The notes under the pieces were generated by a model. It searched no databases. It had not been told where the DNA came from and saw only the letters and a list, made by a program, of their open reading frames with translations. DNA of 64,000 nucleotides from NCBI GenBank assembly GCA_034687125.1, contig JAQGBZ010000116.1, forward strand, positions 110,176 through 174,175. Reading direction: 5' to 3'. The position numbers were made by a program, and so were the translations under genes. The DNA is from Neelides folsomi (taxonomy: Eukaryota > Arthropoda > Collembola > Neelipleona > Neelidae). Shown here piece after piece: positions 30,616 through 63,929 of the stretch (positions within the stretch are counted from its first letter, which is position 1; every line of letters begins with the position of its first letter).

Positions 30616-30634
30616 CCTCCACGTGTAGTGGAGG
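30616..30634. promoter_or_regulatory. CTCCACGTG site within an inverted repeat
   Basis: CTCCACGTG occupies 30617-30625 and forms the left arm of a small inverted repeat: CCTCCA at 30616-30621 and TGGAGG at 30629-30634. This is the leftmost member of the E-box series around Kr-h1. Function is inferred from the motif only. Confidence 0.45.
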
Positions 30635-33600
30635 TCAATTTCGTCGAGGTTGTCCTCAGAGGGAGGGAGAAGAAGGCTATCCTCAATCCTCCAGAATTCC
30701 CAACGCACGAACATCCTCATACAACCATCCGGAATACTCCCTATATATCAACCAGTATAATCCATGAACATCGCTCCCACGGAACCCCAAAATTCTCCAG
30801 CCCGAGTTTATTACCGCGTTCTTTCCTCTATTCCCAACCAATGCAATAAGCTGTTAAAATACATAATATGAGTAGTGTTACAATATTTGCACTAAATAAT
30901 GTATTTAGATAATATCTAAAATCAAATGCACAAATAACACACTCCTAATTAAGTAATTTAATTTATAAACAAGAAATCCTTACTCAATCTTTATACATAT
31001 TCCGAAACATGTAATTTAATTTATTTTTATTGCAAGTTAAAAAAGAACGCGTGCAAATAAAAAATACATTAAAGATGCAAATCGCTTTCTCCGGCTTTCA
31101 CCATTATAAAATGTCTATCTTTATGAAAATTTATTTAGCTGCTTAATTTCAATTAACATTATATGATAATCAGGGGGTTGAACATTTATTGTAAATAAAG
31201 ATGCGAAGATGCTAAAAAATTAAAAATAATACGCAGGTATTAATATTACGCTGTATTGTATAGTTACGCGATCCATAAGGAACAAGGGAGAGTTAAGGGT
31301 TTAAGATTTGCGGGTCGAATTGGAAGTTTTGGTTTTGGGTTCGAGGTGGGCCGGGTGGAAGCTCTACCCGCACGTGTCTCTCTCAAAGTTCAATGTCCCA
31401 ACTGTTCCTTCCAGCCAAATCCAGAAGTGAATCCCATAATAAACAGAGGAGGGAATCCGGCAACGCATCTCTTCATTCTACTTTTTCACCCACCCCAAAT
31501 TCCTACGCACAGACTCTTATAACTCCCAGAGACTCACTATAATCGGCAGAGTGTATGTTCCCATTGTTCTCTCCTTTATGGGTGTCCTCGGGTCCATGGA
31601 ACTGCCCTCCTTACCCATACACTATTATAACTACATCCTTCTTAAGTAATGATACGTTATATCTACGCTTAATTCCCTCGGCTCTTATGTACGTAAAAGG
31701 AAACGCACATTTCTCACGACTCACAGCTTCTTCCACTTTCAGAATCTTCTCTTAATCCATTCCAGAAATTGAGCTATATAACAATCCCTTCAATTATTTT
31801 CACAACTTTATTTTTATGGACTTGGAACTTTCAAGGGAACTTACAGCATCGATGCAGCCAAGTCGGCATTCTGGCTTTAAGCCTAAATATTACCAGCATG
31901 AAATATTCATTTATTATTTACTAACATTAAGTATAGACTCAAAGCTCCGAGTGTTTTTCTATGCTTATGGTTTGTAAATATAAATTATATATATAAGTTT
32001 TACTTTCACTAGTGAATTATTCGTACAATTACATTTTTATACGGAAGATCCTATTTTGATATGATTATAGCAAGGCATAATAAAATATCCAACGTAAAAA
32101 TAAAACTCTTGAGGGATTCGAGCTTTTAACTCTAAAAATTTAAACATTATATTGAGCGATTTATTAAAAATTGAATGGATTGAGATAAAACCAATTCAAC
32201 AAAGTCATGCTTTTCAAATAAAGTGTAGTTTTTTTTAATTCACTCACTTTATTTGCTCAATAGTTATATTTTTCCAATGAATGAATGAAGCTCAATAAAT
32301 AAACAAACCACTCGAATAAAATGTTAAAATAAAAGTGACTCGAAGGTTCAACCAAAATTTACTTTCACTCTGGTAAAGGCTGTGAATAAAATTTATGGAA
32401 ATGAGGAAGATTTGATAAGAAGCGAAACAACGAGGAATCGTCAATAATTTACCAGAATTACATCCAAGATAAAATCCCAGATTCCCTAATCTGAAGCAAA
32501 GTTTTGATTCATTTCGAACAGAGCTCATTTGGTCTTATTAGGAAAATTTATTCACAGTAGGACCTGAGTTTATGAACACTATCTCAAAAGAGAGAATTCT
32601 CCATTTTCCACTTTTTGATTACTACGCGTGTGGGAATATGAAAAAGTTTAAATTTCTTCTTACGCACTTCGTACATTGTCATGATTCTTGATGGAGAGTT
32701 TATGGAAATGGAGTAATCTGCATAGCCCGAATAGGCATGGATTTATAACTTCCTCATCGTATTTGTAAAATGTTTTGTAGATTTGAGGCATTTACCCTTT
32801 GGAATTTCATTTATATCCTTCGTGAATATGAGAAAATTTTATGTTTAATTGCGTGTTAAGATTTTCATACAGATGAATCTTTTGCTCTACTCAAATAGCG
32901 CTGCAGTGAGTCAAATATATTTATCTTATTACATGCTTATGCGTATTGAGTTCTTTCATACTTTTCAAAATCTAAAGTATGGGACTGAAAATTGAAGATA
33001 ACAATTTCTGTGCAGATTTGAGGGATATTTCTTTTATTTCCAAATTAATGAAAAATTCCTTCCAAAAATAGGCCACATCATAATAATAGAAAAAATGCTG
33101 AAAATGAGTTCCTTGAACTCTTCAAAATTTGAAATAGTTAAGGAATTTAGATTCGGCATGAATTATCCCTTTAAATAGGCCTAAATAACACATTTAATAT
33201 TTACTTTCTTCAGCCCTCTCATGTTCCAAAGGAATGTATGGAATGGAAATGCGAAAATGCGTAAATGTTTGATGAAGTTTTATTGCCTTTTATAGAAAAG
33301 CTTATCCTTTTCCATTTCAAGCTCCAAAAGCCTTCAATCCAATGCGTACCCAAAGACCAAAAAATGCTCAGTACATGGAGAGTTGTATCGCAATGCTTAT
33401 ACTCATTTATTATGCAAATATGGGCAAAATGTAAAGTTGAGGAATGAAATAGACCAACTAATTTCCTTCAGTTTAACTCTTTCAAATATATAAATAAGGG
33501 AATGGAAGACATTTAAAATAATGATTTAATTTTGTAGCGTTCAAAATTTTCCTCATCAGCATGATGCGTAAATTTTCCTCTTGAGCAGAGGCGTATTTGG

Positions 33601-36600: not shown

Positions 36601-38242
36601 TGTAGTGCGTTTCTTGCGTTAAGTATGCAAAGACCTTCCGGGCCGCTAGTTTTTCTCATTAAAATATCATTCCGTTCAATTTTCAATGTCAACAATGTAA
36701 GAAAAATCCCCCTTGTATTATTAACGTAGACTCTCCTCTGACTTTGACTTTCAATAATCTGTCTGAAGGATCTTTGAAGATTATTCGCACATTCATAACA
36801 CACAAAGAAACTAGATACACATAAATATTACGCTCCTTTCTTTCTTAACGATTATAACCAAAATGACCCCCAATTGTGTGTAACTGCAGCTAGTGTGTGA
36901 ATGGTTGTAAGTTAGCGTTTCTTCGAACTTTAATTTTTATTATTTCATCATTAAGCCACTCTTCTTATTGTTATATTAAATGAGACATTTGCGGAAGCTA
37001 TTTAGATGGTGTAGAATGATAACAATTATGAATGTGGCGGACGTTAAATTTTAAAACACAAGCTCATTCAAAATAATAAAAGTACTGTTTTATTACTTAT
37101 TAAGTCTTTAATGAAAATATAAATGTAATATGAGCAATAAAAGCTGCTTAATGTCTTTTTGACTTTCATCTACATTGATTGAACTAAAATAAATAAAATT
37201 GTGACATATTGGATGCACTTCGATGCTGCTATTTTGAAATTTAATATTAAGTAGCTAATTATACTCTATATGAAACATTAATCAAACACGAGAGATAATA
37301 TGTATTTTTGTTTGGTTGATGAATATGTCATTCATAAATTAGAAGTTGTTTAATATATAATCCTTATGCCCCAATATTCGTGGAAATCATATTTATCACG
37401 TGTCCATTCCATGGTTGAATTATTAAAAAAATATTAAAAAATGCTCAAACGGGGCAGGGATTGGCTTAGTAACCAAGTGTATTAAATTGCTAAAAGCCCG
37501 CACCAGAGCACTTATTTAATATTTTCAATAATTATTTATACAACTATGGATCCTTGGACACGTGAAATGAAGTAGACTAATAATTAAAAGTCCCAAAATT
37601 GACCCGAATTGTTAATTATCGTTAATATTTAATTAACACGGACTTTAATCTAAAACTTAACTCAGAAATGGGATATAAAATTTGATTTCCCTTAAAATGC
37701 ATATATTAACTTATATGATTAGAGCGATATATACTGAGCTATAGGAGGTAGAAGTTTTAAAAATCAACAACTTTGCGATAGTTTACAAGAGTTTTGAAGA
37801 ACTTTTGATTAATATTAATTCCAAAAGTACTTCAATCATCAAAATCTGAACAAGTAATGTATTTGAATTTTTTAAAAATAGTGTACCAGAAACTTATTGT
37901 AAGAGGTAGACTGAAATTTCTTTGTGTATATTGATCCTTATTGCAAAAAAAAGAATTATACTGATACATACAAATAAAATTAAGATAATTCAAATTAATG
38001 GTATTTTGCTCAGGGTTTAGAAAGAGGGATAAAATGAATACATAAATATGTTAATTGTAATTGTAAAAAGGAATTTTGAACTTCAACACTTGATTGTTCA
38101 TGATGGTTGACCTCAACATTGAAGAGTTGCATAATGAGGATAGGAAGATTCCCAGAGCAAATATATTTTTTGAGCGAAAATTGTAATTATCCGGAGGTTT
38201 CATTTTAATGTCCTTCTTTCACTCCTCCTCCTTCGAATTCAT

Positions 38243-38251
38243 CTCCACGTG
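38243..38251 (+). promoter_or_regulatory. CTCCACGTG E-box (JH-response-element-like)
   Basis: A CTCCACGTG 9-mer in a GC-richer patch about 7 kb upstream of the proposed Kr-h1 start site. It matches the core I recall for Met/Taiman binding. Other bHLH-PAS or Myc/Max-type factors could also bind CACGTG. Confidence 0.45.
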
Positions 38252-39554
38252 CCGAGGTCCAAATGAAGCCCATTTGACTTCATACACCTTTGGCTTCTTC
38301 GATACATTTAATGATTCACCCAGGTCACGCGGAGAGGAACTGACTCCTTTTACACAAACACACACATTCAGACCTCACTTTTGATTTTTCATTTCCTCAC
38401 CATTAAAATCGACCTTAAATGGTAACAAATTCCCCTTCTGTTTGTTAATATGTTAAATAATCTCTAATTGTGACACGATGTTTTAAACTTTCGAAAGCTC
38501 AATGATCATCGTGAATATAAATTCCGCTTTGATGATCGTTCTGGACAGGGGTTGTAAAATAATCCAATGTCATTTGGGGAAAATTGTCCGATCAAATATG
38601 AACCTATTGTTGAAATAAAACTTCCTGTTGATATCTCCAATCCAAGTTTGTTACTCTTTAAGTCATTGTCATTGAAAAATGACAGTTGTTGCAAATGCAC
38701 ACATTGTATATTTCCTAATTACCTTAAATCCGTCAAATGGTTTAAAGGTGAAATGAACTGATAAGGAGAGCAATGGGTTGACATAATATTAATAGGAATG
38801 GAATGTTTGAAGTATAGAGGCTTCATTTTTATTTAGAAGGTTAATATTGCATGGAAAAAAGAGATAATACCGGGACAAATGTCATATTATGTTAAATATT
38901 ATCAGAAAATAAACGAAAATATGTATCACAATATGTTATATCATATTATATTTGTACAAATACTAACTACATAATACCAATTGTTACTAAAAGTATGATT
39001 GTTATTCACTAATGTAATGTATTAATGAGAAGCACGTGTGAAGGATATTGAGATTAACGCAAAGTCTCACTAATTTACTTTTAATTTTTAAACTCCCAAT
39101 GTCATTGTCAAACCTTGTCTCTTCTTCTTTCATTACCAACCTTTGGGCCGAGCCTTCATTATTTCATTCCATACCAATTTCCACTATTATTTTAATAACC
39201 ATATTTATATTAATGTGGAAAAGTAGAGAGCTGAAAAAAGCCCAAAATTCTGCGTGAGTGAGTCGTAAACGCATATCAGTATCAACCCAAAGTGAATTCG
39301 CATTTCTTTAATTCTCCAGAAAGATTGTATGAAGCGGAACAATGGTCTCCAGGAAGGAACTAAGTTGTAAGTAAACTGCGTGAGATAAAAAGAAGGATTG
39401 CATTGTATCGCGGAGATTGGCGGAATGTTCGTCTATATGACTCGCACTCGGAAGTTGAGATTTGGGGTAAGCGGGGATGTGAATGGAGCTCATTCGCACG
39501 CAGAGTAAAGTAAATATAGCAAAGCCGGGATCGAGGGCGGTCTAAGAAGTCCAA

Positions 39555-39566
39555 GGCCTCCACGTG
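39555..39566 (+). promoter_or_regulatory. GGCCTCCACGTG, full JHRE-like match
   Basis: The 12-mer GGCCTCCACGTG matches in full the form I remember for the Kr-h1 juvenile hormone response element in moths and flies. It sits in a GC-richer island about 5.8 kb upstream of the proposed Kr-h1 start site and 12 kb upstream of the ATG. Binding by Met/Taiman is inferred. Confidence 0.55.
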
Positions 39567-40335
39567 TTCGTCCTATCGAACCGACCATCGTGGCGAATGA
39601 AGACGCAATCTCACACACAGAAAACACTCTCCCTTTTACACGACAATCCGGGACTCGAAATTGAGCCGAGAAGTAGAACACGTTTAATGACTATTAATGA
39701 GAAGCATAATGAGCAAAATTGGAAACGTCCTTATTTCATTATTATGCAAATACCGCTAATGTTCTTTACAAAAGCTTTAACAAAAAGGTTAGAAATGAAT
39801 CCATTATTGAAAGAACTTCCCCACTTGTAGGCAAAGTTGAGAAAGTAAAGAACGACAATCAAAGTTAAAAAAACCCAGATTGTGCTTAAATGATCTGGAC
39901 ATGAAAGAAGATTGAAAAATCATTTTCGTATTTGAACGTGGAAGGGGAATATGAATTTTACATGCGTGTAGTGGCGAGATGCGTTTTCTAGATGATTTTG
40001 CTTGGCTGCGCTTAATAAATCATAAATTTCGTTGACAAGTAGCATACGAGGGCGCAGGGTGTGTGCAAATACAAGAACTTGAGGACCTTTGATATATAAA
40101 CTCATTATAGAGGGGCTGGTTCGATCCTGCACCGGGATAATGATATAAATTTTCCATGTCGGAAGTTGTATTGAGGAGTTATAGGGTGATTTTATATAGG
40201 ACCATTCTATTGAACTGTTGTACGGTCATCGAATGAGGGTGAAATTCATATAAGGGAATCTTTTGATAACTGCGAGATGATTCACACTCTTGCGTGTGGA
40301 TAGGTTTTGCTTGGAGCAGAGAGAAGTTTGTAAGA

Positions 40336-40344
40336 CACGTGGAG
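40336..40344 (-). promoter_or_regulatory. CTCCACGTG E-box on the minus strand
   Basis: The plus strand reads CACGTGGAG. A further TTCCACGTG (minus strand, CACGTG at 40693-40698) lies 350 bases to the right, so this patch holds two related sites. Confidence 0.45.
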
Positions 40345-43300
40345 AAGTTTTGTGTAGGGTAGAAGAGGAAGTTCTCGTAGGTTTTGCATTCTTCTTCGTG
40401 TATTGGCCTAGGTGCCGTGTAAGTGGAGTGTCGGATGAGAGATCCAAACCTTTTACCAATAACAATCAACTCAAAGACTGACGCATCCTCCACACACCTT
40501 TCACCAACTTTTTCTTCATTCAACCCACGGCTTAAACTTTAAAACTCTTTTGCAATTATGACTTTAATATTCCTTTTTTGCAATTTTTGATTTTATTCCA
40601 AAATTCTATTATTATTCCCCCAAATACTCAATGATTTCTTTCCAAATATCTCGAATTGTAAAAGCCTAAAAATAAGCTTCATTTTTCCCGAGCACGTGGA
40701 AAATCCTCACATTGCAAAAAATAATCTCATTTCTTTTATGTTACGATCCGCATTGAAGATTGCCCGAACGGAAACAATATGTTATGCTTATATAGTACTT
40801 GTATACGTTCTTATACGTATATAGGTTGCAAATGCTATAAAATCCAAAATATCTTGCAGCAAATAAATTATGCTTCTCGTTTTATGATCCTTTTATTACC
40901 CGCAGTAGATTGGGCCTTTATGAGAAAGCTCCATTACTTCTTAATAACTGCTAGATTTACTTTTGTGAATATTGCTCTGTAGATGAGATAACGTTATATT
41001 AAAGTCTCTCTAATCAGCAAATATTTTTATTTTACTTTATTCGATAAAATCTTTCATTTTAAGATTAAAAAGTAAAGAAGAACCGTTGAAATTCACACTA
41101 GAAAACATTGGGAGTTCGGATAACCTTGTTGTACCTTCACAGAATGAGTGTTTAAAATCCTGTAAATAAAACATTTTAATTGTTTGTTTGATTAGATAAA
41201 TAATTAAAATTGAAGATGTGCTTCTCTTTAATTTCTTTAAGATTAAAAGATAAAGACGATCGTGAGAGATTGAGAGGAGCGAAAAGGTAAAAATACAAAT
41301 TGGGTTATTATTTGGACAACGATCATCGTTTGATTTCATGCGCAACTTCATTTCTAGTTTAATTTCTTATATTTGATGAGAATTGAAAAATTGAGAAGTT
41401 GAAAAACCAATGAAATTTGATGGAGCGATCCTATTTTTAGCCATTTTCATCTTAACAGATTAACGGGAGAGAGAAGAGAACTTTTCTTGAGCTACATAAT
41501 ATTAGATTTTTATTGGTAATTTGACCCTTTTACAAAATAGAATTATAAACAATATGCCAAGGCTTCCTCCTAAAACTTACTCTAAAAGCCTTTAAGAGGA
41601 AATTGCAGGAGCGGGGAGAAATTTTGCCTTTAAGTAGTTTAAATCGAATTTCCTCGAGTTTGAACCTTCGTGATAAAGATGAACCAAACTACAAATATTT
41701 GTATGTACTGACATTTGTATATTTATGTTTACCTTCTAAATATAAATCGAATGAAATCAATATTAATAGGATATTGCATTTGGCATTTCCATTCCTTGAA
41801 GCTCAATGTTCACACATTAACTTACTAATGAACTAGAGTAGTAATATAAATACATAAGAAAATTAAATTATGCCACCTGCCACATGATTACATTAATGAT
41901 CAAGTGGAACAAAATATTTATATCCTTACCCAGAAAGTTAAATATCTTGCAAGTGCGTAACATTTTTTAGGTTCTTTAACTTTTAATACAAATAGATATT
42001 TTAGAACAAAAATCACATAAATACACATTAATTTTGCTCTAATTCACATTATTAGAAATTTAAAATAATCTTCAGCATCTGTAGATCGAAGACCTACAAT
42101 ATTATCTTTTTAATGCAATAAATATAATCCATTGATAAAATAAGAAAAAATATTTTGATCATAGGATCAAACTAAAATGCAATTTTTAATTTGAGAGATT
42201 TCCTTTGTTTCTTTTGTTGCATTCTGAATGGGGGCAAAACTCCTTGCATTCTCATCAAAAACTTAAAGGAAAAGAAACCGTTGGAAGAGGATGAGTGCAT
42301 GAGAAAGGGAAGAAGAATCTTCTTCATGGAAAACGCATGAAGAGTATTGCGTAACGAGGCGCGTAACGCATTTATACTTACGCACTTTTCCTCTTCTCGT
42401 GCCCGAACTTCCTTTCTTCTTCTCTCCCATTCTGATGTAGAACTCGAGGTGAGATTCTAAAGGGTATTTATAACATCCACGAGCCGACTCTTAATCTTCC
42501 TTAATGCCTCATCTAACCCCTCGTTGATACTCTATATTAATGCACCCACTTTACTCAACCCAGTTACAAATTGATGCTATTATAATTAACTTCTCCACTG
42601 CTCCCTTTCAATTCTCCTCATTTCCGCTTTTACCATTCAGGAACTTCCAATCAAAAATTCCCTCTAATTCTCCTCCATCTATCAAATCTCCCATTCTATT
42701 TCAAGTATCTGCATAAACGACGTATATAAAACTTAATGGATGTTAAATGTAATGCATAAAAGCTCAATTGGAATCATTTCGATGAAACAACTATCAATAT
42801 TTCAATATCAGTCAACATCAGTTCTATCAATTTATCTTGAACAAACTTGAGCATTCTATTTGTCAGATTAATAATGCAGCCATACAGAGTGAGATATGCT
42901 GGTGCTTTTAAGTTTCAAGATGGGTTGGAAAGCTAAACATGGAAATGGAAAGCCAAACTTGTTCAATTCATACACGAGATGAAAAAGTGAGGAAAGGAGA
43001 AGAATATGTAAATACAACGTGCATACTTGCCTATGATCCTCCCAATGCATCATACTTATATGCATTCACTGTGCGTGAGATATAAAGAATTTTTAAAAGG
43101 AATAGTGCGTAGGGCTTGATGGTCTCCACGAGGAACGTGGTGGAGCGTATTGACCTCACGGAGAAGAGCTGTGGCTGAGGAGGAGAAGCACCCATGGGAA
43201 AAACATTCCTACTTAACCTTAGTCAAGGCTAAATCACTTTTTGTCCCTCCCCAATACACACGCACCCTCTTCCCATGACATTACATGTATGAGGGCCCCA

Positions 43301-43887: not shown

Positions 43888-43896
43888 CACGTGGAG
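43888..43896 (-). promoter_or_regulatory. CTCCACGTG E-box on the minus strand
   Basis: The plus strand reads GGACACGTGGAGAGG in a GC-rich patch 1.45 kb upstream of the proposed Kr-h1 start site. It is the nearest upstream member of the series. Confidence 0.45.
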
Positions 43897-45307: not shown

Positions 45308-45344
45308 TATAAACACGGCTCCACTTTCCTCGCTCTCCTTCAGT
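45308..45344 (+). promoter_or_regulatory. Candidate Kr-h1 core promoter (TATA box and initiator)
   Basis: TATAAA at 45308-45313 is followed by an arthropod-type initiator TCAGT at 45340-45344, with A+1 at 45342. The 34-base spacing is slightly longer than the usual 30-31. A second TATA-like run (TATATAAG, 45205-45212) lies about 100 bases upstream. The region is GC-richer than its surroundings. Assignment to Kr-h1 rests on position and on the strong downstream donor at 45612. Confidence 0.4.
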
Positions 45345-45859: not shown

Positions 45860-46420
45860 AGCGCCGGGGTGAAGGTATTATAAAAGATTACATTGGGAAA
45901 GGCCTACTTAGGGATTGTTCGAATGCTCGCGTCGGGGCCCCGGTCGGCACGTGTAGCATAAAGTTCCTTTGGGTATGTGAGGTCGGGGAAGCTCTTGATA
46001 GGCAAAACGCGTCTATGCCCATAGCCACCACCCTACGCCCATATCTTCCCAATGTTCTGGCCCGGCTCGAAGGAAAGGAATCTCTTCTTGCTATACACGG
46101 CTGGGTATATAGGGAGCAGCGCCCTACAAAAACTCTCTCTGCTACGACACCACCACAGGGGCAAAAAATGGTTTGACTCCACGTGGAGGCCTAGCCAGGA
46201 TTCTTATATCTCCAAGACTAGACCCATAGCTTCCAGTTCTTGTATACAGGTCTAGCACCCCATAGCTCTTCAGCTCTGGGTGAATAATAGTGAATGGGCC
46301 AACGTCATATTAGATAGAGGTTGCCGAACGACTCTTCCACACGGCCAATGCATTATTCTCCCCCTCCAGTGTATATGTTTTCCTTCACTTCCCCCTACTT
46401 ACATTTTCCCCTCTCGTTGG
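45860..46420. promoter_or_regulatory. GC-rich island with two CACGTG sites in putative Kr-h1 intron 1
   Basis: This is one of the most GC-rich patches in the window. It has CACGTG at 45948-45953, the palindrome CTCCACGTGGAG at 46177-46188, and TATA-like words at 45889 and about 46106. It lies about 0.3-0.8 kb downstream of the candidate first exon. A 67-codon open frame at 46052-46255 looks like a by-product of composition. It could be an intronic enhancer or an alternative promoter. Confidence 0.45.
46177..46191. promoter_or_regulatory. Palindromic CTCCACGTGGAG with GGCC extension
   Basis: CTCCACGTG reads on both strands around one E-box, and the minus strand extends to the full GGCCTCCACGTG (46191 to 46180). 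It is the strongest JHRE-like site by sequence and lies 0.57 kb after the candidate first-exon donor. Confidence 0.55.
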
Positions 46421-46809
46421 TATGTACGTAATCGTATTTAACCTTTAGCGGATAGTTAGATGTAGATGGATCATACCCGATGAAGGAAGCAAAAGGTACT
46501 GTATGTACCTAGTTTAATGAACCACTTTAATGGTCACAAATTTATGTTAATTGGCGGTGCGGACAGACTTTTCGGTCGTGATCAAGTTTGTAGTAGTTCA
46601 CTCTTATATAGGTATATGAGTATATGGTTTGGTATGACACTTAAAATTGCACTGTATTAATATTGTAATTGTAACAGCTTATTGAAGCGAATAAATTAAT
46701 GAATTGATTCAACAAGATGAGTAGTTTAAAATGCTCATTTTACATGAAATTTTCAGATAATGTAGTGCATTATATTTACCATATTTAAAACATTTTGGAT
46801 AAACCACAT

Positions 46810-47392
46810 ATAATCCATTCACCATATTTATAGGACCGCTTTTGTCGTGTAAATAACTTTTTTTTATTAATCAACCAATTTTCATGAAATTTGAACCCAA
46901 TATGTAGAATATCATGTAGTTTAAGGGGAAAAATGTTGGGTGTCAAAGGTTGGCTTAAATGCACTTCTTGAGTCGATATCACTAAACATCAATCGCAGCC
47001 TTTTTCACTATATTAATCATTTATAGAGTTGGTTATGATGTTATATCGAATGGTCAACATCCAGTTCTGACCTAAATCCATTAGACAACTAAAAATATGG
47101 TACCAAATAGCCAATGCGAAACCAAATTAAACAATCGAATCATTAAAAAAGCTTAAAATATAGAATGGGAAATATTTCCAATGTAGATAATCCGCTCGCG
47201 ATTGACGATTGGCGACCGCGACTCAATAAGTGCATCGAAGCTGATGGGTCGACTTTTGACACCCAAGCTTTTTTGTCTTAAACTACATAAGATTATACAT
47301 ATTAGGTTCAAATTTCATGACAATTTGTTGATTAATAAAAAAAAGTTATTTATATGAGAAATAGCGGTCCCGTAAATATGGTGAAGGAATTA
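46810..47392 (+). mobile_element. Degenerate Tc1/mariner element with about 120-bp inverted repeats
   Basis: The left end (CCATATTTATAGGACCGCT onward) and the inverted right end (CCATATTTACGGGACCGCT onward) match over roughly 120 bases, including a shared stretch around TTATTAATCAAC. TA lies at both borders. Between them are plus-strand remnants of an IS630/Tc1/mariner transposase C-terminus: SSDLNPLD, which contains the third catalytic acidic residue, near 47060, and DDWRPRLNKCIEADG near 47220. They are separated by stops and frame changes. The rest of the transposase is gone, so it is an inactive, internally deleted copy. Confidence 0.82.
47050..47280 (+). pseudogene. Transposase C-terminal fragment
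   Basis: Two short frames, out of register with each other and broken by stops, retain the DLNPLD catalytic-region signature and a DDWRPRLNKCIE-type terminal helix of Tc1/mariner transposases. They lie wholly inside the 46810-47392 element. The fragment carries no upstream catalytic Asp residues and no DNA-binding domain. Confidence 0.7.
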
Positions 47393-50300
47393 TACCATAC
47401 ATATTTGGTTAAATGGGCAATATATATGTATGTAATACAGTATATGTACAATAGTACATACCTCACAAGTTGTATTCCTTTACTTGCATTAAACTTTTTA
47501 CAAAAATTGGGATGAGACTTATGATGAGTTAATGAGTTAAACTACTTATTTATCAATACGATTAAAATGTAATAAAATATTAAATGAATTAGTTACAAAT
47601 GGAACACAAGGGAGAATGAGAAAAGTTTGCACTCGAGTTTTCTGCATGAGTTTTGGAGGTGATTTGGCACTCTTTGAACTCGTATAGCTGGTAAAGAAAA
47701 AAATTGGCGAATGCATAGCGGGCTTATAGACAACCAAGTCGCGAATACGCAATACAACTTTGAGCCTTCGCGAAATGGGTCTTGTGTGTAAAAAATCTTG
47801 ACCTCTCTTAACACAAGTGAGATTATCCTTTTCTCGAGCCCCATCCTCTCTGCATCCCAACCTACATTGTATAAACGAGGAGTTCGTAAACACACTCATC
47901 CTTTGCGAATCTACTCGCAAAAAACTCCCAACACAAATGCTCGCATTTTATGGCCTTCTTTCTTTCAGTTCTCCCCACTTATTTTCTCATTTTCTATTAT
48001 GCATTATGAATTGTTATTGTTTATCTCGCTCAATAACTCTTTTACTCCCAATTATAATTCGTATTAAAGTCTGCCGATTATTGGGAAAATGTTTACTTCT
48101 CTGTTTACTTTATTCCATTACGTATAGGTGATCGTACAATCGTTTAACATGCAGACTTTAATGTATAGGGCAACATGATAAATGATGGGAATTAAAATTA
48201 AATAAATGCTTGGCACTATCAACTTGTTACTTACTTAGGTATATAAAATAAAGTGGTGATGTAAGCAATAAAACATGTTACTAAATAGATTTAGACGATG
48301 GACAAGTTCTCATTTACATATTTGGAATCCAGATTCGTTTATTTTAAATTATATTTGATTAATCAACAATAGTCAATTAATAAGTTTGGTCATCAGAAGC
48401 CAAGATGGAATCTTAACTGAATGCCAAACAAGTTGTGTTGAAAGTTCACATTACTGTCGATTATTCAAGTTTTGAGATGAGATACGATATGTTTAGAGAA
48501 TACTTCAATATCAACACTCTACCAATACAGTTTCTATTTTTTGCATTGACGGATTTGGGAATTTTTGCTCAACTTTCTATTACAATATTATAGATGAATG
48601 ATCAATATTTCCCAATGGATAAATCTATTTCCCAATTGATAAATCTATTGTGCATTTGTTTGTTGTTAAAACTGTTTTCCCATAAAGTGCCAATTTTAAC
48701 AACATTTACCTAATCTCATTTTGATTTTGAATAAGATTCTTGCATATTTAGTATTCATATAAATGTATGACTTTTGATTACAGAAAATATTTTAATATAT
48801 TTTAATTCGCTTTACATCATGTTTATTGTTTTTACTGACTGACTTTAATGTTTATTTTCCAAATATTCTAAAAAAACTTGGTGTTAATATAAGTACACCA
48901 ATACTCTCTATTCATACATCCTGTTCATAATGATAAATATTTTCTTTAGTTGGCGACTCTCAATTCGTTTACATGGCAAATGCACAAAAAACAAAATTCT
49001 TGTGGATATTTTACTTTTACTACATACAAGCACAATTGTAAGTGCACATGGATTTTTGCAAATTGAAGCCATGCAATGCATTCGGTTCATTTAACACTCC
49101 CAGACTCCGCAGATGTTTTCGCTGAATTCCCCCATTACTTACTGAGAAAAACAATAAAAATTGTTAGCTCTCTAGTCATAAAACTCAGGATATAATATAC
49201 ATAACATGTATGGTATCGTATGTATAGTTATATTAATTATATATCCCTCGTATTAAATGCTAAAATTTAGTATTTAAAAAACTCTTGCAATGGCCAGAGC
49301 ATTAAACAATAGATACATTTTTGTTCGTGAATTAACAATAAGAATTTTTTTAAAATTGAATCAAACCGGAAGTTTAACACAAGTTGAAAGAACTAAACTT
49401 GTGTAATTTGCATATTAAATTTACCAGCCAGTCCCCAATTATCCCATGTAGTCTCTGTATATTTATGTACAAAATTATCTCTATACTCATCTTAATGCAT
49501 AAGAGTAAGTATGCAAACATGTGCAAAAATTGTAAAAGAGTTCGTTAGTAAGTTTGGTCTTTCTCCAGCCCTTATGTGAATTGGATTTTTCTAAATCCTT
49601 CGAAGTCTGACAGGATGTGAAGGCTTAATTATATATGACTTGCATACACTCCAGCATTGAGTACGAGATGGGAGATATGCAAATAACATGCTGGAAATTT
49701 AGGTTTGAGGAATTGAAGAAAGGATTGACAGATTTAAGTAGAGCAGAGCGTGTTTCCACCACCGTCTGTTCTTCGCCCTATTATTGAACAGACGCCTACT
49801 CAAGGAGAAAGAATTGGCTTAGGTTAAGAATTCTTAGTTATGTAGTACTTTTAACAGCCTCTAAAATTTTCATGAGTTCATTGTACAAATCCTATTACCC
49901 CTCCTCACTACTCTCCCGTTTTTATAGACATGTGGAGATTCAATCGCCCCATTCAAGTGGAAAGTTAAAAGTTAGATTAGATAGCACAAATACCTAAATG
50001 TTCTCACAAGTTATCATAATATAGTAAGACGCCGGGTAGAACACAATAAATTTATATTGTTTTTATTAAAGGCCTTTGCTCTCCAAGATTTAAGAAATTC
50101 AATCTTTGTTCTATTTATCTCAACAACTCTCCTTTTAGATTCTATTTATTTATGCAGAAAAGCCAACTTATTATTCTCGATGTGCCATTTTGTTTTATAC
50201 CCAAGAATTGTTTTGCGTTTTGAAATTCTTCATTTGATAAATATTTCGTAATTTGAACCTTTAATACATCGTTTTATCTCGAATATTTGACATTTAAAAA

Positions 50301-51696
50301 TAACGTGTGATTATAAAGCATTTTATAACACAATTCACATATTAGTTATTTTCTTAAAATTAGTGAATTTGTTTAACATTTTTATTATTGTAGATTAACT
50401 AAAATTATTATTATTAAATTAGATTATTAATTATTAATTTTTTAGTTCAATAATAAATCTCTCGTTTATAATTCTTCAATCTTGTATTAAGTACTTACAT
50501 GTTTTGTTTAGTCATTTGTGAGTTCATTCTCTTCCAACCCAAATTATTCAAAAAATGTTAGTTAAATTTAATGGTTGTGAGGATTCGTTATTGTGGAGTC
50601 ATATTCCATCTCTCTTAAAGGAAAAAAGTGACTCATAAGAGGAATTGTTCAGTTATTTATGGAATATGTGTTATGGATGTAACGGTAAGATGACCTTTGA
50701 ATTTGTTGAATGTTCATCGTTCAAATATACATACATTGGAAAGGGTGTGCTAAGAAAGTTCTTCAACTCACACCACAATTTTCAAAGATTTGACCTACTA
50801 ACAATGCACACACAAAAATACAACTAAAATTAGACGCCCAATAAGAGAAATCATATAAATCATTTGCTATATGATAAAGTCATTTGATAAAACTTTCAAT
50901 GGTCAGTTGAAAGGTTCATAAACGCCAAATAAACCCTATTTAACCAACCCCAAACATATTCTTTGCTTATATGCCAAAGAATGATAATTATTTCGCTGTA
51001 CCCAACGACTTTAGGCTTCGGCTCATTTGGCTATTAATATGGGTTAAACAAATATGTATTTTCACACATCATATTTATCCTATGCTTTTCCATATCCCAA
51101 TATATTTATGTTTCAAGACGCACCATTTAATATATTAAGGTAGTCACTCTCTCCCTTCAATTAGCGTTAGTTTCTTATCCTAATGAAATATGCAAGTAAT
51201 GTGTGATTAGTCCACTTACGAGTATATTTTGGTATATCTCAATCCGTACCTTGAGAAAGACGATTTAACAACTTCCTCAATACTGAGGACAAGAACAAAG
51301 AGATTAAGTAAGGGAAGTGTGTCATTCTCTTTACAAAGCCAAGTCATCTTTTCATATCTTAATTTCACTTCACTCGTTCAGTCGCGACTCATGCAATTGC
51401 TCATCCTTCATTCGGCTCGTAAATCACAACAGCCCATATCCTTCGATTTTAAGCTTAAACTTGTACTATACTTTGGCCCTTGGATCACATAAACTATAAA
51501 CATTAATAATACATTAAAATACTCAACGCAAGAGATCTCAATTCTAGCCATAAAATCAAGAATTAAATCTAATTGTTTTCCTCTTATGTAATAAAAGAGT
51601 TAGTTAAACTGTTATTAATACTCATAATTAAAATGTTATTTATAGTAAAAATTGAAATAATTAAATTTTAATATATAAACTTTTTTATTGTTCCAG
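47393..51696. other. AT-rich non-coding stretch before the first Kr-h1 coding exon
   Basis: No exon is supported here. The open frames at 47546-47920 overlap on both strands and show no domain. A 20-bp tandem duplication (TTTCCCAAT.GATAAATCTA) occurs near 48609-48649. If the candidate first exon at 45342-45611 is right, this whole stretch is Kr-h1 intron. Confidence 0.5.
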
Positions 51697-51728
51697 GTTG
51701 ACGAGGAACCAAGTTGAATAGGGGAAGA

Positions 51729-54700
51729 ATGGAGTTTTTGTCGTCGAGCTTGTCTTTTCCTATGTTCCCAAGAGAAGGGGAAAGCGCGAGAGAAGTGGGA
51801 GGTCAGAAATTGGTCTGTACTCCGGAAGTGAGCCTTTACCAGTACGAAGGTCGAGGCGGGGATGAGAAAGCTCTTCCTCCAGGATTCCAATGCGGATTCT
51901 GTGGGAAAAGCTTCCAGCAGAAAAACACGTTCCAGAACCATCTTCGATCTCATCGAGAAGGAGAAGACCCCTACCAGTGCGACATTTGTGGAAAAACTTT
52001 TGCAGGTAATCTTTAAATCCTTGTACTAGCGATAAGTTATTAGCATTATAGGCTATCGGATAACGATCATTTTTTATATTATAGACAGTATAAAGCATTC
52101 AAAAATGTGCAGCGTTAATGTGATTTATTATAAGGAACATCCTTTAATTATGTTTGAATATATTTATAAGTAGATTAATGAAAGCATAAATTTCAGAAGG
52201 CTATGAGAGAAATCGAGGCAGAGTATCAATAAGATAGCAAGAGTCAAGGAAAGGACAGGCACGTGGCGCATAATAACAAATGCATATGCTATTGTTATTA
52301 TTAATTCAACAATTATCTGAACAGATTCATTCGGCATTATGGAATTAAAATATGTTAACCATTCGGCAATGCGTTTGCCTATAATACTTTATGATAAATT
52401 TGATATCCAATACATATGATTTACATACAAACCTATATATTTAATAATAGTAGGCTTAGTATGTACATAAAATATTTATAATCAATAATCACAATCACTA
52501 TTTGGAGTAAAATTCAATATAATTTTTATTATAATCTATTTTCTCTATATAATTTATATTGTACATATCATTTGTACTTTTATTGTATAATTTAATTATA
52601 GGATAAATATCAATTTTATATGAACATAATTCACTTTAATAACTACGTAGTTTAACGATATTAAAGCAAACTAGCAAGTGCATTTTATAATGTTTATAAT
52701 TATAAAGTATGCTAAAAGAGAACTACAATATGTATTTAGTATATGCACAGGAATCTTTATAACATTTAAATGAAATGTTGATTTGGTCTTATTGTTCTCG
52801 ATGTAATACTTTGTAACTTTAATACATTTAATACATAGCTCAATAGAGTGCATAAATATGTTGTAATGATTATTTCATGCTCTTATCAAAAGCACATGTA
52901 TGTATTTAAACTAAATATGATAACAACAAGGTTCATTTCTCTCATACATATGGTATAATCTTTAATTGTAAGTATTTTCTGAAATAGTTGCACAATTTAC
53001 CTCTGCATACAAAGCTGGATCTGTATAATAACAAATACACCTTGTGTCAAAGTACAATTAGAACTGATACTCCGATACTGATACATAATGTTTTTTATAG
53101 TTGTACTTACATAGATAAATACACAAAATATTGCGGAGAGCCATTTTGAAACTATGTCATCTCTTTTTGATTGAGGAATTTTTCATTATTAAATACATTG
53201 TTTGGTATTTAGAACCCAGAATTTGAGCCCAGAATTTCCTTTGAGAGATTACACAAAATAATATTTCATCCTTGAGTTCATTTCAAATATAATTGTAAGG
53301 TATACAAATTAAATACAAATATAGATGAAACATTGTATCAACACATTGATCCTTTTCGGTATACCTTTTAAGTAATTACATTTTGTCAGTAGCCTTCGAC
53401 GCCTCAATCTCTCTTTTGTCCATCTTTTCTTTTCATGCTGACATGATTAAAACGCATGTTCTATATGTTAAAAAAATTGTGGTAAAATTTTTAGCAATTA
53501 GCAATTAATTGGAATATTTAACTGCTAAATGTAATATGATATATTTCGCCAGAACTTGCTGCTTGTGGTATCATTTCCGAAACTGACTATGAAATCTTTT
53601 TAAAATAATTAAAGTCTGTTCAATGAATAGTGAATTAACTTTAATTTGCTCAAAAGAATTCCTAAATAGGATAAGACTCCAAATAAACGCAATTAACATA
53701 ACATATGATAAAAAATTTCATTCATTCAAATTAATTTATTCTATTTTTAATTTTAATAAAGGATATAGATTTATCATTTACACGATGAGTAAACATTTTG
53801 CGGTTAAGGCATTAAAACTTAGTTATCTTTTAAGCATGTATTTAAATTAAAGTATAACAAATTAGACCGGAATTAGATGACGAATCAGATTTAAATTCCA
53901 AGGAACGAAGAATGAAAGTTGAACCGCAAAAACGGTTCAATTTTCCACATAAATAAATACAGATATTTATAATGAACTGATTGAATGGACTCAACTCATT
54001 ATTTTCCTTATCATCCTGTCCTCAATAAATGATAGGAGTTTAAAATTAATTCATAATATAATATATTTGATAGTTCTTGCATATTTGTTCCATGCTCAAA
54101 GATTGACAAATGGTCAGATTCCGCAAATTGGTAATATTGGCACATTGAAAAGACTATTTATTGACTAAAGCCATTGATAAAAATGCAAATAATATGAAAT
54201 AAACATACGTCATGTATTGTACAGAGTGATTGTAAATGACATATCATTCAATATATTAAACTCCACCTCTAATACATTAGCATATTAATGATAATAAATA
54301 CATATCATTATTAGTTTGTAGCTCTGTGGTTAAAATTGACGTTGGGAGTTGATTACGTGTGTAGTGAGGTAGGAAGGCTTAAGAGATAAGAACATAGTAT
54401 AAATATAAGAGCTTGAAACCAAATGTGATTCTTTCAGTCCCGGCCCGGCTCACTCGCCATTACCGAACTCACACCGGAGAAAAACCCTACCAGTGCGAAT
54501 ATTGCAACAAGTCGTTTTCCGTCAAGGAGAACTTATCCGTCCATCGCCGGATTCATACCAAGGAGCGGCCCTACAAGTGCGAAGTTTGTGAGAGAGCCTT
54601 TGAACATTCGGGAAAACTCCACAGACACATGAGGATCCATACAGGAGAACGTCCTCACCGGTGCTCGATATGCCAGAAGACGTTCATTCAGTCCGGCCAG

Positions 54701-56517
54701 CTCGTGATCCACATGAGGACTCACACTGGAGAGAAACCTTACGTTTGCAAGGTCTGCAACAAAGGATTCACCTGCTCGAAGCAGCTCAAAGTCCATACAC
54801 GGACTCACACTGGAGAAAAACCCTACACGTGTGACATTTGTGGGAAATCCTTCGGTTACAACCATGTTCTCAAGCTTCATCAGGTAAAAAATTTGTTTCA
54901 ATAATTTGCATAATTTCATCCCAGTTCCAATTTCCCATTTTAAATTTTCAATCCTAATTTCAATTAAATTTTGACCAATCAGTTTTTTTGTCCACTAAAT
55001 TTGTAAAATGGTCAATTCATGAGCATAAGCGCATAAATTAAAATTTGAAATTTTATTTATCACAGGTGGCTCATTATGGAGAAAAAGTGTACAAATGCAC
55101 TCTTTGCAATGGAACATTCACGTCAAAGAAATCCCTCGAGACTCACATAAAGACTCATAGTAGTAGTAATAATAATAATAGCATTTCTCACGAGTCCTCG
55201 ATTCCTTCAGTTGTCTCCCCACCGAGTCCAACACCGCCCGTCCTATCTCCTTCATCTCAAGGGCCGCCCAACACCTCAGACAAGGAGAACCGCGAGTCCT
55301 CAGACGACTCCTCGGAAATCTCTTCCCAAAATTCCCCCAACAATCTCGATGCCCCAAAGACACCTCCATCCCCACCATCTTTCCTATTAAAACCATCATC
55401 GACGAGTTTGAGTCTGCCTGGCGGGATTCCCTACCCGATGCTTCCACCCGGGATCCAAGTACATCAAGCCCCGCAGTCTCGAACGACGTTTCTCTATGTA
55501 ACTTCAAAACTTCCTCCTTCCCCTACCACGTCACTGCAATCACAAAACTCCCCCATTCTTCCTCGTCCCGACGACAAGGTCTACGTCCCATCCGAGGCCA
55601 CACCCAAAGGGCTCAATTTACCTTTTGGAATTGCGTCAGGGATGCACGGGCGATCACAGGGGAATTCGGAAGGAGAGGGATGGGAAAATAAAAGGGAGAA
55701 AGTTTTGGCTTTCATCGAGAAATTCGGGGCGAATCCAATTCATACAGCTTCTTCGGCTCAGCAAAGTTATTCTCGACCCTTCAACGGTTTCCGATCCACC
55801 TTTACCACACCTGATGATAATATGGGTTTCAAGCCCCATATGGATTTCCTCCAACATCATCAGCCACATCAAGCCCAGCCACAGCCACGAGGAAGGCCAA
55901 GAACCAGAACTGAGTTTGTACATCATCCTTCACCTCAACATCAAATGTACCACCAGCAACAGCACCACCCACAGCAACATCAACAACAACAACAACAACA
56001 ACAATTATTTTCTCCGAATCACCCCGGAGGAGTTTTAGCCATGGCTTTGACTCGAGGTTCAAAGGCTGTCAACAGTGTCCAAGGGAACCGATTCGAAGGG
56101 AGGAATCGGAGCCCGGAAATTCCAGAGTACGAGGAAGATCAAGACCTCTGCATAGATTTCTCATCTTCAAGGCGGGGCTCGACATCGCCTGGAGGAACTT
56201 ACAATGCCGTTTCCCACAAGCCGGCCCTAGGAGGTTACGAGGAGGAACGTGGAGCGTCGAGGAGCGTGAGTCCTTCGTCTACTCCTGGGCTATCCGAGTC
56301 AGCAGAAGACTTATCGGACGAATACGGGGCCGGGAGCTCGTCGTCAATGACCACCTCTGTGAGCAAGAGGAAGAGCAATGCGTTTGGGCCCAGGAAGAGG
56401 TCGAGTCTGATACTTGAAAAGTATGCACAAGAGAACCCCAACGGTAATAGTGAATCAATCCTCTCTCAGAGACTCCGACTCTCATCTGTTATCCAATATG
56501 CGGAGAAATGCACATAA
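51729..56517 (+). CDS. Kr-h1: Krueppel homolog 1, C2H2 zinc-finger transcription factor
   Basis: Three coding exons: 51729-52005 (exon begins at acceptor 51697), 54438-54883, 55066-56517; 2175 nt, 724 aa. Kr-h1 is the immediate target of the juvenile hormone (methyl farnesoate) receptor Met/Taiman and represses metamorphic genes. Eight C2H2 fingers occupy about residues 54-270, with near-invariant family sequence: EGEDPYQCDICGKTFA, VPARLTRHYRTHTGEKP, YNHVLKLHQ|VAHYGEKVYKC. The intron at 54884 splits finger 7, and the one at 52006 splits finger 2. The C-terminal half is Ser/Pro/Gln-rich with a polyglutamine run (CAA repeat at 55981-56004) and short motifs kept in Kr-h1 proteins: an acidic DLCIDF block, PRKRSSLILEKYA and SSVIQYA. 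An in-frame TGA at 51699 forces translation to start at 51729 or later for transcripts using this acceptor. JHRE-like E-boxes surround the gene. Confidence 0.98.
52006..54437 (+). other. Kr-h1 intron between fingers 1-2 and 2-8
   Basis: A 2.4-kb AT-rich intron with donor GCAG|GTAATC and acceptor CTTTCAG. It contains one CACGTG (52260-52265, in GGCACGTGGCGC) and a GC-richer patch around it. No internal exon is seen. Confidence 0.8.
55981..56004 (+). repeat. CAA microsatellite coding polyglutamine
   Basis: Eight perfect CAA codons within a longer His/Gln-rich segment of Kr-h1. Length variation between individuals is likely at this locus. Confidence 0.9.
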
Positions 56518-59500: not shown

Positions 59501-60970
59501 AAAGTGAAATTAAGATTAACTAATATTATTATAATAAATGTTTAATCATACTCCATGATTAAATATTATGTAAACTCTCATGTTTTTGCAAGGTAATTTT
59601 GAGTTTTGACTGGATGTTCGCAATATTATGAAATGTGTTTGAAAGAATATTTCAGTAATTTTTTGTTAAGATTATTAATACATTTACATTTATTGTTAAT
59701 AATTTTTAGACTGTTCATTGAACATTAATAATGAGTTTTATTTGGCGATTATAATAATATTTTACTAGCTTAATTGTAATTGTTGAGAATTATTACTAAA
59801 CTAATATTATTTTACCCATTAATATAACCAATAAATGATGTACTTTACATACCTACTATATCAATAGTTTATTTTCTGCACTTCGTAATTATGTGTTATT
59901 ATTGTGTTCAATCGTAAGTGTGGATTTCTCATTCACGATGTTTTTTTTTAATTTATAAAAGTACGTATACTACAGTTATACCTACTACCTATATTTACTA
60001 TTTGGCTCCACAAAAATACTAATAATTCATTTGAATTGTGTTCTTTATTTATAATCAAACAATGTTTTAAATGTTAATTTCAGTGTATGCTTTTACCTAA
60101 TAGTTTAAACATGTAATTGATATTTACTTCAAAAATTGCAGTTGAAGAATATTTCTCAATAGTAAAATGTTAGCAAAAATACTAATAATTAAAAATGCAT
60201 CAAGTCGTCTTTTCCCTCGTGAAACTGATGAAACCTCAACACATATTTTTCCTTAGATTTTAAAACTATTTCAAATATTAAAATATGATCAAACCAAAAT
60301 CTTGTAATTCGGAAAAGTTATAAAATAGTGAATATGTGAATAATTCCATAAATTGGAATACTCGTTGGAATATTCTCCCTAGACATGTTTTCATATAACA
60401 ATAAGATATTATATAATATACTACATATTGTATGTATATTATATTGATTACTATTACGGTAAATCATTGTTTTACATGTTAAACGATTGAAACAGATACC
60501 AAAATGAGGGAAGACGCAGCTTTATTTTTGTGTCGAAATAGTCTGCTGAATGTGTTCAATAAACGTTATAATACCAATTATTCTTATGAAACATCCTATA
60601 CATACACGACATGAATAATTATTACAAATAAACGAATAAAAATGTCTTATCTAAAATAATAATTGCCTTTTTCACTCATCTATAAATAAAATTCATTCAT
60701 TTGCATATCAATTTTATTATTTTTTATTATTAGAAATACTCATATTTGTTTACCCATTTTATCGATTACCAAATACAATTACTTATTACAGTAGTGAAAG
60801 GAAATACAACGACTAAAATCTAGATTACATCTGTATAGTAAATTACTAAATAGTAATACAAGACAGATTCTATTTACTGATGGATGATGAAATTTAAGAC
60901 GATCCTAATAAAATTAGCTCATGATCATTTGGGATGAAGATTGAGAGTTGAGATCCGAAAGAGAAAAGAG

Positions 60971-61112
60971 ATGTGTGGAATAAGGTTAACTGCGTTATTT
61001 TTGTGGATTTTGGTCTCAATTGCCACGTGGAGCAGAGGTTTTCATTGTGACACTTGTTTTCCCTTACATCATAACAATACCTCGTCCATCACTACATATA
61101 GAATATATATTG
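60971..61112 (+). CDS. Possible first exon of a secreted Cys-containing protein (weak)
   Basis: An open frame starting MCGIRLTALFLWILVSIATW has a convincing signal-peptide-like hydrophobic core, then FHCDTCFP and an Asn/Thr-rich stretch. It reaches a possible donor ATTG|GTAAAT at 61113. No downstream partner exon was recognised before the window end. The frame also overlaps a CCACGTGGAG site, so it may simply be a chance frame in a regulatory island. Confidence 0.2.
61024..61032 (-). promoter_or_regulatory. CTCCACGTG E-box on the minus strand
   Basis: The plus strand reads CACGTGGAG in GCCACGTGGAGCAG. It lies 4.5 kb downstream of the Kr-h1 stop codon. Confidence 0.4.
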
Positions 61113-61720
61113 GTAAATGCTTAAAATAGGGCCGTAGCGATATATCTCCATTTCGTATTAAATACCTTTCCAGCCTTATTATCCTCTATCTTATCCTTTC
61201 ATCTGGCTAAAGATCAAAGCTCGTAAATAGTAAACAACAAAAAATTGAATGGCCCTTTCAAAGAAGCCTCACTTCCTTTTCGATGTAAAATGGTGCATGT
61301 CACACATTGAGGGCATTCATTTAAGTATTTACGATCGTTAGTTATCTTCGGAATTATGGGGGAATCCACCAAAGGAGGAATTACATACTTTTCTACTAAA
61401 TAATAGGATTGATAGTTCAAGGAAATGAAGATAAAGGTTTATTAATTTTTCTAAGAAAAGGTAAGAAGGGATTATAATGTGAGTGTTTGAGTGGTGATGT
61501 GTAGCATGTCCCTTTGTCGTTTTATTTAAAAAGAATTCTCAATTCTATGTATCCTGGGAGGGCAAAGTTCGTACATTGTGGATTTTAAGGGTCGTTCGTG
61601 GCGTCCCTTCGTCCTCTTCCTTTTTTTGCCTCGGATAATAAAAGAATGTAGGTCTCTTGAAAAGTGGAATAATGAATGTGAGTCAAGTGGGAATCGGATG
61701 GTTGGGGCAAAGTTGATCCC

Positions 61721-61729
61721 CTCCACGTG
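61721..61729 (+). promoter_or_regulatory. CTCCACGTG E-box
   Basis: Reads CCCCTCCACGTGTCAGGG in a GC-richer patch 5.2 kb downstream of Kr-h1, 0.7 kb from the preceding site. GTCCACGTG variants follow with CACGTG at 62854 and 63681. Confidence 0.4.
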
Positions 61730-63929
61730 TCAGGGACAAAAATGTTTTTACTACTCTGCCAATTGATAATAAAATAATAACAATTCCCACGAATTTAATT
61801 AATTAACATCCTATGCATAGTACTTTAGTACTTACTCAGTACATTTCTTAAACATTGTTCCTGGTAAATTCAAAAACAACTCGTTTTCTGGAGAATTAAT
61901 ATTTACCTGAATTACCTGATATGATATAAATACATAAAGAGGAGTTGATCTCATGCCATATAGTCTGAACACTCAAAGAGATAAGAACGGTTTCCTTGCG
62001 TTTTTTCGTATACAGTTTAGTTGTTGGTTCATTATCATGATCATCGTAAATTTGCATAATAACACTATCCTGTAAGTTCAATTTGATCATTACACTCCTA
62101 ATAATGAGTGAGAAAAGTTGAATTCAACCTTCCAAAAATATGAATGAAATTGAAGCCCAAAGTGTGAAGTCCTTGCGTTGCCCTTCGTCTTTTCAATGAC
62201 TCTACTAAACCAAGATCACGGCTACCTCACATCAGGAGTATATCAATTCGCATTTCATACGCACCTATTCTTTTACTTTGATTAAGACATTGTCCTTACT
62301 CCTTACACTACTTAATAGGTTATATCAGAAAGCTTAAAATTGCGGAAACGCAAAAACGAGACGAGCTTCACCTCATTGTTCTTGAGATTTTTATCATTAA
62401 CGCACGTGTACCATATCAGCTATTGAGAAGCGAAATCAAATGAAAAGTACTAGCGAGTGCTTTCTTTCCATCAATTAGATGTTTTTAAATAAACAAATAT
62501 ATTTTTTAAATATTATTATTTTATAGTTTGAAAAATGCTATTTAAATTACAGATACGTTGTAAATAGCATTTTGTATTAATGTTAAGAATTTACTATTCA
62601 ATATGATTATCCTCAATTTCATAAGCAATAATTTTGAGTTAAATAAGGCATATACATAATGGGGATTTTTGGAATTGTGGAATAATTTCTAAATTCTTTT
62701 CCCAAATGAGAATTTTTGGTATTGGTGGTATTTTTTGGTTCTCTTGTGTAATACTTTCACTCCAATCCTACCCTAGTTTCTTTACATCTTCCATTTCCAA
62801 AATGGACTTTTAGCGCATAAAGTTTTTCATAGAAAGGGTGAATTTAGGACGTCCACGTGGCGAACTTGGGGAAGGAAAATGGGTCAAAGTCTCTTCCTCC
62901 TTCCGAGAAGATGAGGCAGGGAAGGGAAACGACGTAAATGTTGAACACGCAGACCTCTCCACCTCAACACTTTTCCACTCCTTTTCTTCTTCCACTTTCA
63001 ACAGGGCCAGTTTAACTTGAAACATTCAAACTCATCAACTCATCAAATACGTGCAATCATAACATTTCAAAATACCCAAAGTTTGTTGAGAAAATTTCCA
63101 ATTACTTGTAGCAATACCAATGTCCATGACTTAAGATATTTCAAGGATCATTGATGCAGGATTCTTTTATTCCTAATCATGTAAAACATTTTATCTTTAC
63201 ACCTTTTGAACTTTTCTTGCTCCAATTAATGAATTGGACTATAGGTCCAATATTCTTAAATCATGAATGATTAATTTACATATAATAATATTCAAGTAGA
63301 TTATAATGATCAAAATTATTAAAAAAAATAAAACATGTATTATAGGATTATGTACCATTGCATTACAATTTTACAATAAGTAGGTATGTAATGATAGTGT
63401 ATATTGTATACCAATCTAAATTAGTATGATATTTATTGTTAGTATTGATTATTGTATTGACATTTTTTTGGATTAACAACGATGTTAGTATAAAGAGAAA
63501 CTCAGACTAACTTTCCTGTAAATTACTGGAGCACGATTTTGACTTTTGACTGTCAAGAATTGAGAACTTGTTGATATTAATACAAAGGTCGGGAAGTCAA
63601 CACATTTTACAGAAGATCCATCTTTACACTTGACCCATATTCCGGCACTCAAAAAATATTTATTCTTTGAGTTTGAAGTCCACGTGCAGTATTAATTACC
63701 CTCTTCAAAAATATAAAGAAAACTTGAAAATGCAAGTACAAAAATATGAAGGCCGATGATAAAATAAAAAAATACCACAATTTACATTTAGTTAAATTAG
63801 CAGAATGTGATTTATTTTCTTGAATCGATTAAAACACAAAGATTGTGGCGACAACGAGGTAGGTAAGTTAATTACACAATACTACAATATACAAATTATA
63901 ATATGCACACGTAAGTACATTATGATATA

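Follow-up and report, generated by a model that had tools for sequence, protein, structure and literature searches.

An array of E-boxes resembling k-JHREs is dispersed over 33 kb around a putative Kr-h1 gene of Neelides folsomi

Juvenile hormone prevents metamorphosis by way of the gene Kr-h1. In the collembolan Neelides folsomi, a C2H2 zinc-finger gene that we take to be Kr-h1, from its zinc-finger sequence, lies within an array of 19 CACGTG E-boxes. The stretch of DNA analysed, hereafter the window, is the terminal 64 kb of contig C116 (JAQGBZ010000116.1; 174,175 bases) in an assembly of 75,104,828 bases (75.1 Mb) and 840 contigs. Eight loci of the array carry the 9-mer CTCCACGTG, which joins the CACGTG core to the flank of the k-JHRE, the juvenile hormone response element (JHRE) described at Kr-h1 of insects. 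The 33 kb around the gene are probably, judging from these letters, a dispersed homotypic cluster of k-JHRE-type elements for the receptor halves Met and Taiman. A k-JHRE at Kr-h1 is what a specialist would predict; a site count per 33 kb more than double that of any other placed group of the genome is not. What sets the locus apart is the number and spread of the sites, which extend an element known in one or two copies into a field of 33 kb.

CACGTG occurs 20 times in the window, once in its first 30.6 kb (position 900) and 19 times between 30620 and 63681. The 30 kb of contig C116 just before the window contain none. The 9-mer is found on the + strand at 30617..30625 (locus 1), 38243..38251 (locus 2), 39558..39566 (locus 3, in GGCCTCCACGTG), 46177 (locus 6) and 61721..61729 (locus 8), and on the - strand at 40336..40344 (locus 4), 43888..43896 (locus 5), 46180 and 61024..61032 (locus 7). 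These nine strand matches correspond to eight loci because 46177..46188 is a complete palindrome, CTCCACGTGGAG, with the 9-mer on both strands. Three further E-boxes carry TTCC- or GTCC-type variants of the 9-mer, namely TTCCACGTG at 40693..40701 (- strand) and GTCCACGTG at 62851..62859 and 63678..63686 (both + strand), the last being 314 bases before the contig end. The remaining CACGTG sites are located at 31371..31376 (within CCGCACGTGTC), 37397..37402, 37559..37564, 39033..39038, 45948..45953, 52260..52265 (in the intron separating the first two predicted Kr-h1 coding exons), 54826..54831 and 62403..62408. Only 54826 is coding, within the Kr-h1 zinc-finger exon, and the other 18 of the 19 are non-coding. 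A preliminary description of the window had listed the same 20 hexamers, eight loci and three variants, and all of these counts were reproduced; its recognition of the gene as Kr-h1, presumably correct, agrees with our own reading of the zinc fingers.

The eight exact loci span 31 kb. Six of them lie 5.5-21 kb 5' of the predicted Kr-h1 ATG, locus 1 being the furthest (21 kb), and two lie 4.5-5.2 kb beyond the stop codon, locus 7 being the nearer (4.5 kb). Spacing within the array ranges from hundreds of bases up to kilobases, with no packing into a single enhancer. Since contig C116 stops at the end of the window, the array is cut off there and may continue.

To place these numbers against the genome, both words were counted over the 75.1 Mb, which contain 5832 CACGTG and 407 strand matches of CTCCACGTG (207+200), while the palindrome CTCCACGTGGAG exists in eight places, 46177 being one. 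At these rates 4.97 CACGTG and 0.34 9-mers are expected per 64 kb, the former in line with the earlier estimate of about five. The 33.4-kb array holds 19 CACGTG against about 2.6 expected (7.3-fold; Poisson P 5e-11), and nine 9-mer matches fall in 33.07 kb against 0.18 expected (Poisson P 4e-13). Relative to an order-1 Markov model, CACGTGGAG is the top over-represented 9-mer of the region (9 vs 0.04). It is absent from the top 9-mers when a 222-kb set serves as background, because that set was picked for the 9-mer; the 222-kb set and a second one of 211 kb consist mainly of 10-kb pieces selected for carrying it, so that they understate enrichment and are a poorer control than the counts over the whole genome.

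By splitting the word, 386 of the 407 matches could be placed (344 + 42), corresponding to 378 distinct loci; the remaining 21 are preceded by C or T, have G next, and lie at or beyond C299 or C237. Among the placed matches, the densest 33.4-kb stretch of the genome is the Kr-h1 locus with eight loci, followed by contigs C354, C320 and C84 with three each; in 64-kb stretches, C354 has four. The possibility raised in the preliminary description, that the 9-mer is equally dense elsewhere, was therefore not borne out among the placed matches. Random placement of 399 loci, repeated 3000 times, never gave eight in 33.4 kb (maximum seven, once), and in 1000 random placements of 5832 E-boxes the maximum in 33.4 kb was 15; placement in these simulations was uniform along one line, ignoring contig ends and base composition. 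For CACGTG the genome total is known and positions come from the first 780 kb of C1 alone (56 sites, at most six per 33.4 kb), a scope in which a top genome rank is not claimable. A single 9-mer count thus picks out the known master target in a 75-Mb genome, with 386 of the 407 matches placed, and an equivalent scan of other insect genomes could rank candidate juvenile hormone targets.

A smaller group was seen at C84:70000-79999, where five CACGTG occur in 10 kb. Two of them belong to CTCCACGTG matches separated by 162 bases, and another 9-mer follows 28 kb further on; the longest open frame is 120 aa, and this could be a second hormone-response locus. Open frames at 16 loci around other 9-mer sites, read by eye, showed no clear juvenile hormone theme, and nothing is drawn from them.

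Could base composition, repeats or chance alone have produced the array? Such an origin is already disfavoured and we regard it as very improbable. Comparison with other words speaks first to composition. CACGTG occurs 19 times against 0.6 expected from 60.6 unselected kb, and the next palindromic hexamers by ratio are TCGCGA (4 vs 0.6) and GTGCAC (3 vs 0.6). None of the 31 other palindromic hexamers shows a comparable excess, the nearest by ratio being TCGCGA with 4 vs 0.6-1.1, a somewhat high value in small numbers that lends this explanation some support. Against the 211-kb set, itself selected for the 9-mer, CACGTG is 3.4-fold and TCGCGA 3.6-fold up. The words CATGTG, CAGCTG, CAGGTG and CATATG differ little or not at all from expectation, and the C-box CACGCG is found four times against 1.1 to 2.7 expected. 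A general inflation of CpG-bearing words was rejected as the source of the array, the CACGTG excess being far the largest among the 32 palindromic hexamers. In favour of a compositional origin, another CpG-bearing word, AACGCA, is locally high, with 25 occurrences in 30.6-64 kb against 5.9 expected from a genome count of 13,244. Its shorter form ACGCA (TGCGT) is also locally common between 28000 and 48000 of the window, with no extended consensus. It is not claimed as a partner motif, its distance to E-boxes in 27.5-48.5 kb being like that of random points (median 817 vs 782).

The repeat checks bear on the same explanation. The core of the array at 38.0-46.5 kb (8.5 kb, five of the eight loci) is single-copy, a genome search returning only itself. 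Comparison of the 410-base flanks of the eight loci gave short matches only, the best being a 13-nt run that includes the motif (E 0.045), and no repeats of at least 24 nt were listed at the sites. A dispersed-repeat origin was therefore rejected, for 38.0-46.5 kb by its single copy and for all eight loci by their unrelated flanks. Repeat-borne clusters of the 9-mer do exist in this genome: at C354 (23500-33400), three sites lie inside a repeated exon with the common flank TTCCGAGA...CACGTGGAG, in tandem copies, some apparently incomplete, which we presume to be cytochrome P450-like. C354 is the model of a trivial, repeat-borne cluster, unlike the Kr-h1 array, whose non-repeat copies exceed the density seen elsewhere in the genome as far as matches were placed (386 of 407). 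The single-copy core, the unrelated flanks, the much smaller rise of other palindromes and the 0 of 3000 simulations reaching eight loci all stand against composition, repeats or chance. A separate feature, an inverted repeat at 46809-47394 with arms of about 140 nt that are 86% complementary and separated by 301 nt, looks like a small non-autonomous DNA element; its distance from the palindromic locus 6 is 0.6 kb.

The bases next to the E-box argue for k-JHREs in particular. CTC precedes CACGTG in nine of 38 strand-oriented E-boxes of the array against 407 of 11664 genome-wide (6.8-fold; binomial 5e-6) or, counted per locus, in eight of 19 (2e-5). No genome-wide excess of CTC before CACGTG was seen (3.5%, 407/11664), and in 60.6 kb CTC makes up 3.0% before CAC (33/1098) and 5.5% before CACG (7/128). 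As the genome-wide share is about that given by base composition, the CTC bias is particular to the Kr-h1 locus.

This flank matches that of a published k-JHRE. According to PMC8683598, Met-Tai of Tribolium castaneum and Aedes aegypti bind both TCGCCTCCACGTGCCGTTTCA, the k-JHRE of Tribolium Kr-h1, and GCCGCACGTGTCGTTGG, the consensus MFBS1, in electrophoretic mobility shift assays (EMSA). Exact runs with the published k-JHRE probe are present at five of the 19 sites: 12 nt at locus 2 (CTCCACGTGCCG, against the Tribolium EMSA probe), 11 nt at locus 3 and at locus 6 (- strand), and 10 nt at loci 1 and 8. The site at 31371 has the 11 nt CCGCACGTGTC in common with MFBS1, the Met-Tai consensus of the mosquito, and CACGTGTC is enriched in the region (6 vs 0.21 expected). 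Aedes Met-FISC(Tai) MFBS1 is an in-vitro selected consensus, whereas the array here is genomic. The earlier assignment of the 9-mer as the core of the Met/Taiman element of Kr-h1 agrees with this published k-JHRE flank.

Both receptor halves appear to be encoded. A genome search gave 47 HLH matches, all 47 of which were read, in 46 stretches. Contig C109 carries a gene with a basic helix-loop-helix (bHLH) exon followed by PAS and PAS_11 exons (matches to the HLH, PAS and PAS_11 models), which is Met-like and which we take to be Met from a signature in its sequence; C129 encodes a Taiman-type bHLH (NCOA bHLH model, 7.3e-23). Structure look-ups and NCBIfam returned no gene names beyond PAS-family membership.

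Several observations count against a Met/Taiman array and should be considered together. Eleven of the 19 E-boxes have no CTC, yet they are enriched as well (11 vs 2.4, P 5e-5), so other, less specific bHLH factors come into consideration. Proteins that we take to be USF, Max, Myc, Mnt, cycle, tango, clockwork-orange, Hey and hairy-type bHLH factors are also encoded, and several of these types are able to bind CACGTG. The 21 unplaced 9-mer matches have no position, and the contig ends with the window, so that the 3' sites may belong to another gene. Finally, site positions are relative to the predicted ATG and not to a transcription start, which makes "upstream" and "first intron" inseparable.

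The first two of these points support a generic E-box cluster, read mainly by USF, Max/Myc/Mnt, Clock-Cycle, clockwork-orange and hairy/Hey proteins, with Met/Taiman at a few sites; PMC6818763 gives CACGTG as a Hairy binding motif in Aedes. We consider such a cluster unlikely in view of the 6.8-fold CTC bias and the 12-nt and 11-nt runs with Met-Tai probes. Kr-h1, the presumed host gene, is moreover the best known Met target, and the review PMC9092015, which for several insects describes Kr-h1 promoter JHREs of the E-box or CACGCG type, points the same way. Taken together, the CTC bias, the single-copy core, the probe-like runs and the putative receptor halves make a Met/Taiman array the best reading of the sequence. 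The many-site landscape that had been proposed at Kr-h1 holds in that the array is real, specific to the locus and single-copy in its core; it is weakened in that CACGTG also serves other encoded bHLH factors.

A comparison with known systems shows where this locus departs from them. PMC4214675 and PMC4114754 place the kJHRE in the promoter for Bombyx Kr-h1 and in both the promoter and the first intron for Tribolium, so that usually one proximal element, as the preliminary description had it, was too narrow. The array shares with the k-JHRE of Tribolium castaneum and Bombyx mori the CTCCACGTG core and the presumed host gene, and six of its eight loci, upstream of the predicted ATG, may lie partly in a 5' intron. 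It differs in number, with eight exact cores and 11 more E-boxes instead of one or two elements, and in extent, spanning 33 kb and lying partly 3' of the gene instead of within promoter or first intron. Homotypic clusters of transcription factor sites in insect enhancers are usually dense and contained within about a kilobase. The array resembles them in that one site recurs many times near a single target gene, whereas its copies are spread across tens of kilobases. No description of a many-site k-JHRE array was found among the open-licence PubMed Central matches listed, a scope that does not include the original Kayukawa papers.

The published examples also suggest a more modest alternative, in which only one or two sites function as k-JHREs, like those in promoter and first intron of Tribolium, and the others are weak, redundant or relic. 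The one or two elements described in PMC4214675 and PMC4114754 and the spacing of hundreds of bases to kilobases, with no single packed enhancer, are in its favour. Neutral relics should however decay, and eight exact loci in 31 kb need either maintenance or a recent origin, for which no duplication was seen to account. This alternative seems to us somewhat less likely still than a generic E-box cluster.

If the sites are Met/Taiman elements, Met would pair with Taiman when hormone is present, and the dimer would occupy many of the sites 5' of the gene, within its 5' intron and 3' of it. The occupied sites would jointly drive Kr-h1, and their distribution over several enhancers would give a steep, sustained or tissue-specific hormone response. 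The array suggests that hormone acts on Kr-h1 through many response sites instead of one. That many separate Met/Taiman elements form a field across the whole locus and govern the gene, with hormone level read as the number of occupied sites, is a proposal to which we give slightly less than an even chance. Such a field over at least 33 kb would be comparable to a super-enhancer, but specific to the hormone, instead of a promoter-proximal switch. If many spaced elements cooperate, the conversion of titre into a threshold, the strong Kr-h1 response and its tissue pattern become testable per site.

The putative Kr-h1 protein is encoded by three predicted exons, in which Pfam finds C2H2 fingers only. 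The first (51697..52005, + strand) contains the first ATG at 51729 and follows a pyrimidine-rich AG at 51695-51696, its splice sites being set by eye. The zinc-finger exon (54437..54883, + strand; C2H2 fingers, boundaries by eye) and a final coding exon through the stop codon (55066..56517, + strand; start by eye) complete the gene. An in-frame TGA lies at 51699, 30 bases 5' of the ATG. Provided that the AG acceptor, placed by eye, is real, the transcript has a spliced 5' leader with at least one upstream exon. Hidden protein genes inside the array were rejected: of ten open frames scanned from 30.6 to 48.1 kb, none matched a Pfam model above the cut-off and a single one did so below it (E 0.073). 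The published binding site of Kr-h1, TGACCTNNNNYAAC, a consensus taken from PMC9092015, is matched once, at 47799, with a chance expectation of about 0.2 per window, and perhaps reflects Kr-h1 autoregulation. The full ecdysone-response consensus, as we assume it to read, has no match in the window.

At the opposite end from the array, positions 2731-10475 of the window contain on the - strand a gene for a chitin-binding (CBM_14) protein and a chemoreceptor-like gene. Three frames were scanned for the latter (6-10 kb), of which one matches the ligand-channel model PF10613, and the gene presumably resembles IR8a. A frame ending at 25.8 kb, without a match in the Pfam scan, presumably resembles SmB. 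This frame and the chemoreceptor-like gene both sit in the E-box-poor part of the window.

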